64,000 nucleotides of DNA from Saccharothrix syringae. GTDB lineage: Bacteria; Actinomycetota; Actinomycetes; Mycobacteriales; Pseudonocardiaceae. The notes beneath the pieces are model-generated. The model was not told the DNA's origin. It searched no databases and saw only the letters and a list, made by a program, of their open reading frames with translations. The stretch lies in the NCBI RefSeq assembly GCF_009498035.1, contig NZ_CP034550.1:496001-560000 (forward strand), written 5' to 3'. Both the position numbers and the translations under genes were made by a program. This document shows, piece by piece, positions 14,091 to 62,731 of the stretch (positions are counted from its first letter, which is position 1; each line of letters starts with the position of its first letter).

Positions 14091-14156
14091 GAGTCGAACC
14101 CCCGGCACCCCCGTGTCGAACCCCCGGACCCCCCGAGTTCCACGTCCACCACCGTC
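14091..14156 (+). repeat. Three units of the 22-bp GTGTC repeat family
   Basis: Units begin at 14091 (GAGTCGAAC), 14113 (GTGTCGAAC) and 14135 (GAGTTCCAC), exactly 22 bases apart. They start where homology of the sigma-factor pseudogene stops and end at the menC stop codon. Same family as the arrays at 29375, 49085 and 62341. Confidence 0.7.
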
Positions 14157-29374: not shown

Positions 29375-29596
29375 GTGTCATGCCCTCAAGCCCGGCGTGT
29401 CATGCGCTCAGCTCGCGCGTGTCATGCACTCAGACCCGGCGTGTCATGCGCTCAGACCCCGTGTGTCGAACATTCAGGCCAGTCGAAACCGCTTCCCACA
29501 CCTGCGGCACGTCGCCCGAGCGCAGAACTCGGGGGTGCTGAACGCATGACACGCGCGGGTTGGGCGCATGACACGCGGGGGCTGGAGGCATGACAC
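29375..29596. repeat. 22-bp GTGTC repeat array with inverted halves
   Basis: Five forward units begin at 29375, 29397, 29419, 29441 and 29463. Four reverse-strand units have their GACAC (or AACTC) 5-mers at 29526, 29548, 29570 and 29592. Every step is exactly 22 bases. Forward units read GTGTCATGC four times, then GTGTCGAAC. Reverse units, read inward from the right, are GTGTCATGC three times, then GAGTTCTGC. About 25-40 bp of non-repeat sequence separates the arms. The array lies between two divergent genes. Confidence 0.85.
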
Positions 29597-49084: not shown

Positions 49085-49216
49085 GTGTCCTCCACTCGGA
49101 CACCGCGTGTCCTCCACTCCGGCACCGCGAGTCGAACGTTCAGGACCGTCGTGTCGAACGTTCCGGACCCCCGTGTTCGACGTTCGGGTCACGCGTGTCG
49201 TCCAGTGGGGTACCGC
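49085..49216 (+). repeat. 22-bp GTGTC repeat array, six units
   Basis: Units begin at 49085, 49107, 49129, 49151, 49173 and 49195, exactly 22 bp apart. The opening words are GTGTCCTCC, GTGTCCTCC, GAGTCGAAC, GTGTCGAAC, GTGTTCGAC and GTGTCGTCC. The array lies downstream of the sacsin-like gene, in its direction, and in front of the convergent DUF2530 gene end. Confidence 0.88.
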
Positions 49217-62248: not shown

Positions 62249-62340
62249 CGGTTACCCGACCACCGGGAACACCACACCCAGGACGTGAGCGCGGCACCGA
62301 CCAGGAACGCGCCACCACCCCCAGCCCAAAACCCACCGCC

Positions 62341-62560
62341 GGCCTGTCCGAGTGGAGGACACGCGGTGCCGGACCGGAGGACACGCGGTGTCCGAGTGGA
62401 GGACACGCCGGTGCTGAACGTAGAACTCGGGGGCCCGGAACGTTCGACACGAGGGTCCTGAAGGTTCGACTCGCGCGGCTTGAACGCATGACACGCCCGA
62501 CCTGAGCGCATGACACGCCCGACCTGAGCGCATGACACGCCGGTGCTGAACGCATGACAC
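62341..62560 (-). repeat. 22-bp GTGTC repeat array, ten contiguous units
   Basis: Ten units on the minus strand, exactly 220 bp, with 5-mers GACAC, GACTC or AACTC at 62358, 62380, 62402, 62424, 62446, 62468, 62490, 62512, 62534 and 62556. Read along the minus strand, the opening words are GTGTCATGC four times, GAGTCGAAC, GTGTCGAAC, GAGTTCTAC, then GTGTCCTCC three times, so types are grouped in blocks. Confidence 0.9.
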
Positions 62561-62592: not shown

Positions 62593-62731
62593 GGGCCCCG
62601 ATTTGACATGGGTTCGAGTGCCATAGGCTGGTCGGAGCCGGCAGGCTCGGCGGGACGCTTTTCCCCGCCGTGCCTGTCGGCTGCGGCCTGCCTCCGGTGC
62701 TCGTAAGGGCCCCATGTCAAATCGAGGCCCC
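62593..62731. repeat. Long imperfect palindrome (139 bp)
   Basis: Outer arms of 14 identical bases, CGATTTGACATGGG (62599-62612) and its reverse complement (62711-62724), with GGGCCC/AGGCCCC flanks. Inner arms are GCCGGCAGGC-t-CGGCGGG (62637-62654) and its partner (62664-62681), 16 of 18 positions paired, around the loop ACGCTTTTC. The whole folds as one long hairpin. Just downstream of the 22-bp array and upstream of the sepH terminator. Confidence 0.7.

Follow-up and report, generated by a model that had tools for sequence, protein, structure and literature searches.

What is the run of ten abutting 22-bp units at positions 62341-62560 of a 64,000-nt stretch of the Saccharothrix syringae genome (the window, positions 496,001-560,000 of contig NZ_CP034550.1), and how is it related to the similar runs found elsewhere in the same DNA? 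A previous reading of the window, made from its sequence only, had described a dispersed family of repeats with an exact 22-bp period in four arrays, and both the family and the four arrays were confirmed. The array at 62341-62560 is linear and contains the ten units claimed, but the order of its words (four ATGC, two GAAC, a GAGTTCTAC cap and three CTCC) holds only when the array is oriented, with GTGTC lying on the minus strand. The run of nine units proposed at 29375-29596 has the right number of units but is not a single run: a plus arm of five units (29375-29484; four ATGC and one GAAC) is separated by a 24-bp loop (29485-29508) from a minus arm of four (29509-29596; three ATGC and a GAGTT cap unit), which makes it a face-to-face array. 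At 49085-49216, between convergent genes, there are indeed six units on the plus strand (two CTCC, two GAAC), the last two being degenerate, whereas the three units at 14091-14156, also on the plus strand, are two GAAC and a third one of the GAGTT type. A CRISPR was discarded, in agreement with the sequence-only reading, as the units abut at 22 bp and there are no unique spacers, and so was a described RNA family, since Rfam 15 at curated score gave no matches within the window.

The linear array adjoins a 124-bp palindromic module (62600-62723) with the terminal inverted repeat GATTTGACATGGG, and an array followed by a module of this type was found at seven further places in the S. syringae sequence read. 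The linear form reported for the window is only one of two, and by itself this array shows no RNA fold (z -0.15, or +3.5 with exact limits and 30 shuffles), whereas the composite of array and module reaches a z of -4.0 and the whole face-to-face array at 29375-29596 a z of -10.8. The module also carries a promoter-like TTGACA-17-TAGGCT motif (62603) directed away from the array. A second, unrelated family of palindromic modules precedes five other linear arrays (G000:C1 2313516, 2371815, 10184830, 10396813 and 10537842). Arrays yield spurious ORFs, such as those with repeated peptides of the VMRSG/VSCAQ type in window positions 62252-62560, which may get annotated as hypothetical proteins.

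The genome of S. syringae (G000) is a single contig (C1) of 10,929,570 bp with dnaA at position 693, so that its numbering presumably starts at the origin. Units were searched with a 24-column weight matrix in 1,664,000 bp of it, corresponding to three 400-kb blocks, the window and twenty 20-kb pieces placed at already known pattern matches, using the reversed sequence as a control. A score of at least 13 gave 485 units and none in the control, whereas a score of at least 12 gave 488 against one; the words of these 488 are ATGC (168), GAAC (154), CTCC (117) and CTAC (17), others being rare. The units group into 77 clusters, and the spacing between neighbours is exactly 22 bp in 373 of 411 cases. 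In the whole genome, patterns for the three commonest words, GTGTCATGCNCTCA, GTGTCGAACNTTC and GTGTCCTCCNNTC, gave 84, 68 and 185 matches, compared to 0, 0 and 2 in the sequence read backwards, and the origin-proximal half holds 79 of the 84 ATGC/GAAC clusters (p 3e-18).

Each unit is asymmetric, reads G(T/A)GT(C/T)NNNCNNTC and sits on the 22-bp grid, which corresponds to two helical turns, as previously noted. The words are arranged blockwise, as had also been described, and many arrays have a distinct type of cap unit, with GAGTT at its start, after their GAAC units. Three array forms can be distinguished: linear, face to face (> <) and back to back (< >). The arms of face-to-face arrays often close with GAGTT caps around a short loop. 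Both arms carry the same words (overlap of 0.80 compared to 0.35 for shuffled arms, p 2e-4, 36 arm pairs), and linkers are barely more similar between two arms than across different arrays (0.613 vs 0.589). In back-to-back arrays the distances are either 5 bp (two cases) or 26-29 bp (nine cases). The 26-bp centre of these arrays often contains GTGAGAGCGCTYCCAC (for example at G000:C1:8721852 and 10487975), a sequence that we take to resemble a LacI-family/CebR operator. Two candidate causes of this architecture were rejected: base-pairing among the word letters within one unit, on reading the words, and an A-form RNA behind the 22-bp period, once genomes with a 21-bp period appeared.

Outside the window, one intact gene (10129191-10130105) lies between two opposed arrays that, together with it, span G000:C1:10129022-10130198. 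The sequence-only reading was right to consider the binding of a protein or an array of terminators, but missed both this array-bracketed gene and the palindromic form of the arrays. The 304-residue product matches DUF559 (E 1.3e-4) and the AbiEi profile of PADLOC (E 3.7e-12), and a search of the PDB by sequence profile gave no matches to it. In a structure model obtained from 68 sequences (an earlier one from 15 sequences was poor, with a pLDDT of 60), residues 1-190 are predicted to adopt the AbiEi fold of the antitoxin and the other half a catalytic-domain fold of the Vsr/EDxHD homing-endonuclease type, both among the matches listed. Databases label the DUF559 proteins of this lineage by domain or as hypothetical only.

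The distribution of this nuclease within the genus follows that of the arrays. A two-unit pattern with free words was found in 15 of 25 same-genus genomes (23 to 397 matches each, the other ten having none), and a close single-copy ortholog of the nuclease (57-71% identity, E below 1e-100) occurs in exactly the 15 array-bearing ones. The ten array-free congeners lack a close ortholog, and remote matches were obtained in G009 (E 2e-48) and G010 (E 5e-22) with a single-sequence query and in G017 (E 1e-27) with a profile. In all 15 array-bearing congeners the gene is bracketed by arrays and, as judged by eye, keeps the same neighbours at one locus, with no movement seen. In G019 (L290) the nuclease cassette lies inverted between these neighbours. 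When 69 nuclease loci were tested (those of the 15 congeners, the 15 best out-of-genus loci and 39 picked from genomes with and without array matches), a bracket was detected in 62, all of them scoring at least 42, compared to 21 of 490 random genes of S. syringae, only one of which reached that score. The seven loci with undetected brackets belong to G234, G145, G034, G402, G230, G313 and G200, the last one at a contig end.

This association extends to the whole family. Among 390 family genomes, in which the nuclease was called with profile A1 (E up to 2e-60, five candidates scored per genome), it is present in 37 of the 39 genomes with at least 20 array matches, compared to 139 of the other 351, and in 42 of the 45 with at least eight. 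At this threshold no nuclease match was obtained in three genomes with arrays, G247 (98 array matches), G249 (20) and G326 (11), and 93 nuclease genomes show no 22-bp match at all, two of which were sampled for 21-bp arrays. In the nine genera having both states (at least eight matches and none), the nuclease occurs in 38 array-rich genomes against 20.0 expected (p 8e-13). The co-occurrence within the genus of S. syringae, which is nearly one clade, counts for little more than one event, and it is the contrasts between genera that make up its independent part.

Arrays are not unique to the window either. The two-unit pattern was detected in 93 of the 390 family genomes and in 21 of 46 genera, although very unevenly (1 of 24 genomes in one genus, 2 of 6 in another), and in one of 80 NusA loci from named genomes, that of Pseudonocardia nigra (L147), in a scan that may omit S. 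syringae itself. The period is fixed in other copies, as the earlier description would require, but at 21 bp in some genomes: several of those invisible to the 22-bp pattern have 21-bp-period brackets around the nuclease gene, and dispersed 21-bp triples were found in G147 (four) and G179 (five), in 200 kb of each, with none at 22 bp and none in the 21-bp control. The words are species-specific, to the point that ATGC is nearly private to S. syringae (a single match, in one of 24 congeners). Moreover, the words of the bracket agree with those of the dispersed units of the same genome (overlap of 0.52 compared to 0.26 when shuffled, p 5e-5) in a comparison of 13 genomes with ten listed matches each, from which G102 was left out and in which G007 and G024 use GTAA, a word that the pattern cannot match among dispersed units. 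Given this shared dialect, the dispersed arrays seem to be reduced copies of a selfish DNA system that has apparently gone undescribed. Face-to-face arrays also share the anatomy of the brackets (GAGTC/GTGTC outside, GAGTT cap inside), with a short loop replacing the gene, and thus look like miniature derivatives that the nuclease helped to spread within each genome.

The reading suggested by these computed features (grid, grammar, placement, bracketing, co-occurrence, dialect match and predicted fold) is that the dispersed arrays are probably gene-less extragenic copies of a two-part element, composed of a nuclease gene and inverted arrays, which have been co-opted as terminators. The master copy would be the nuclease gene at G000:C1:10129191-10130105 enclosed by its inverted arrays. 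Each protein monomer probably has a single 21-22-bp unit as its site, which it would bind with the AbiEi-like half, so that successive monomers would follow the two-turn grid, and the variable word would be a species dialect common to protein and arrays. The Vsr/EDxHD half would then cut or nick at the units, and repair or strand transfer would copy the arrays to new places. Copies would survive best behind stop codons, where palindromic ones, forming long RNA hairpins, may act as terminators while the old terminator decays. Linear arrays may be decayed or composite copies. Points against this explanation are that 38 of the 71 arrays folded are linear and unstructured, that a few array-bearing genomes gave no nuclease match and 93 nuclease genomes no 22-bp match, that seven of the 69 brackets went undetected, that the co-occurrence within the genus comes from nearly one clade, that the terminator exchange was seen at a single gene, that the linkers of two arms are hardly more alike than those of different arrays and that the gene, as judged by eye, stays at one locus.

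A second reading, which we regard as unlikely, is that the arrays serve as binding platforms for the protein, which would be a DNA-binding regulator or a nucleoid protein, so that the bracket would reflect autoregulation, nothing would be mobile and the words would drift with the specificity of the protein. PMC7319586 describes AbiEi-type proteins that autoregulate through 23-bp repeats. The two-turn grid points in the same direction, and so do facing units, of which 23 out of 25 pairs have a 5'-5' distance of 0, 1 or 2 mod 11. Binding platforms of a regulator, however, fit poorly with the position of the arrays relative to genes. Genes were called by codon usage with an in-house program, which overlooks some of them, and on this basis the claim that all copies lie between genes holds for 75 of the 77 clusters, the remaining two not being assignable to one spacer. 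Of the 75 clusters, 32 lie in convergent, 39 in tandem and only 4 in divergent spacers, whereas divergent spacers make up 27% of all those of at least 30 bp (p 3e-6). Distances to facing stop codons peak sharply at 7 bp (median 17, n=103), compared to a median of 145 bp to a facing start codon (n=47). Similarly, none of 15 loci with the two-unit pattern (one of them from S. syringae) is divergent, and 15 of their 22 facing stops are at most 12 bp away. Brackets are also present downstream of the nuclease gene, and the nuclease residues are invariant in 68 of 68 aligned homologs, and both observations speak against this second reading. Finally, a replaced terminator distinguishes array-bearing from array-free ftsZ ends.

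Quite improbable, in our opinion, is a third reading in which the arrays are merely bidirectional terminators, copied and homogenised by gene conversion, and the nuclease gene just happens to sit between two of them. The placement at 3' ends, with mostly convergent and tandem spacers, agrees with it, and so does the strong folding of palindromic arrays. Among 71 clusters of at least 60 bp compared with shuffles, palindromic arrays show a median z of -11.2 (below -2 in 32 of 33), and linear arrays a median of -1.0 (below -2 in 6 of 38); array-free convergent spacers of 60-300 bp gave a median of -2.5 (below -2 in 33 of 58). Palindromic arrays thus provide the strong RNA hairpin behind a gene that characterises intrinsic terminators; linear arrays do not fold, which speaks against terminators as the whole explanation. 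Moreover, the array at 29375, one of the four divergent cases, lies between divergent genes, and therefore a terminator does not fit every copy.

A further point in favour is the exchange of array and terminator at the 3' end of ftsZ, which was compared across 25 same-genus genomes, S. syringae included. A compact hairpin of -22.7 to -49.9 kcal/mol lies within the initial 130 nt of all 13 ends that lack a tandem array, and in G013 two decayed units are also visible by eye farther on. Of the 12 genomes with an array, only G015 also has a separate compact terminator, G007 and G024 have a strong hairpin formed by the array itself, and the other nine have either no hairpin or one inside the units (-7.3 to -27.0), the hairpin of G001 thereby surpassing the weakest one of the 13 ends without an array. 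If array-made hairpins are counted as array, array and ordinary terminator are mutually exclusive in 24 of 25 genomes. The words at this site vary between species, and both arms match within a species. The exchange was observed at ftsZ only: most array-bearing congeners also have arrays at the 3' end of nrnA, with no clear exchange of terminators (4 of 25 loci were unreadable). In the nrnA of several congeners (for example L251), the stop codon is part of a cap unit on the minus strand and is supplied by the array, which looks as though it had been written over the end of the gene. Palindromic arrays behind stop codons seem to take over transcription termination, yet a terminator would need neither a fixed 21-22-bp grid nor a skeleton conserved across genera, and a fortuitous neighbourhood would hardly account for the frequency of bracketed nuclease loci (62/69 vs 21/490) or for the family-wide co-occurrence.

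Like the multiple transposase sites of Tn7 and Tn402, the units are tandem sites with a length close to 22 bp that face opposite ways at the two ends and carry TGT at the tip. That the arrays are MITEs of a classical DDE transposon of this type is nevertheless very improbable, because the bracketed gene is of the Vsr/EDxHD type instead of a DDE transposase, because an array may occupy everything from one stop codon to the next, and because inspection by eye of eight array sites showed no duplication on their flanks.

For a two-part element with gene-less copies, the nearest system in kind is the REPtron (RAYT/TnpA-REP; REP, BIME, REPIN). According to PMC2817692, PMC8266576, PMC3733652 and PMC3116915, RAYT genes are flanked by inverted REPs and are mostly single copy, whereas REPs occur by the hundreds in extragenic positions, mainly in convergent and tandem spacers, are of species-specific types and form hairpins as inverted pairs. 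The likeness to the arrays covers the mostly single-copy enzyme gene flanked by inverted repeats, the hundreds of cognate extragenic repeats, the hairpins of inverted pairs, the bias towards downstream and convergent positions and the species-specific repeat types. The enzyme, however, is an AbiEi-fold/Vsr-type fusion and not a tyrosine (HUH) transposase (Y1, PF01797), and the unit is an asymmetric tandem of 21-22 bp, in contrast to the REP palindrome of 20-40 bp with a GTAG (or CGTC) tag. The arrays thus place an enzyme gene between inverted cognate repeats with many extragenic copies, for a nuclease instead of a RAYT; lacking the tyrosine transposase and the tagged palindromic unit, the system is REPtron-like and not a member. 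A RAYT/Y1 transposase was also rejected as a partner of the arrays, as S. syringae has no match to PF01797, which was found in 4 of the 15 congeners with arrays and in 1 of the 10 without.

Other known systems share single features with the arrays. EDxHD/Vsr homing endonucleases such as I-Bth0305I have a catalytic domain whose fold matches the predicted one, but they home into one allelic site, whereas the repeats described here occupy hundreds of unrelated places and their cleavage is putative. The AbiEi fold is also that of the type IV AbiE toxin-antitoxin systems, although here it is fused to a nuclease, bracketed by arrays and accompanied by hundreds of repeats elsewhere. DNA uptake sequences of Neisseria also have species dialects and inverted pairs able to serve as terminators. 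The likeness ends there, as the uptake sequences are not known to form head-to-tail 22-bp arrays or to bracket a nuclease gene. Among the open-access papers listed in literature searches, none names these arrays or links DUF559 to a repeat family in its title or the opening of its abstract, and the available part of a REP survey (PMC12306157) does not mention the genera looked up.

A broader proposal, to which we give about even chances, is that the AbiEi-fold/EDxHD fusion (DUF559) represents a second, independent kind of REPtron, which, one dialect at a time, would place copies of its operator arrays at gene 3' ends throughout the Pseudonocardiaceae, the host having ceded the termination of many core genes to selfish arrays. 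If true, the arrangement of one enzyme and hundreds of cognate extragenic repeats would have arisen twice, with unrelated enzymes. A lineage of DUF559 proteins gains a concrete candidate DNA partner and a testable role, and the array words, together with the periods of 21 and 22 bp, offer a natural protein-DNA dialect series for the study of the co-evolution of binding specificity. Finally, the arrays may explain the transcript ends of many genes in antibiotic-producing actinomycetes.
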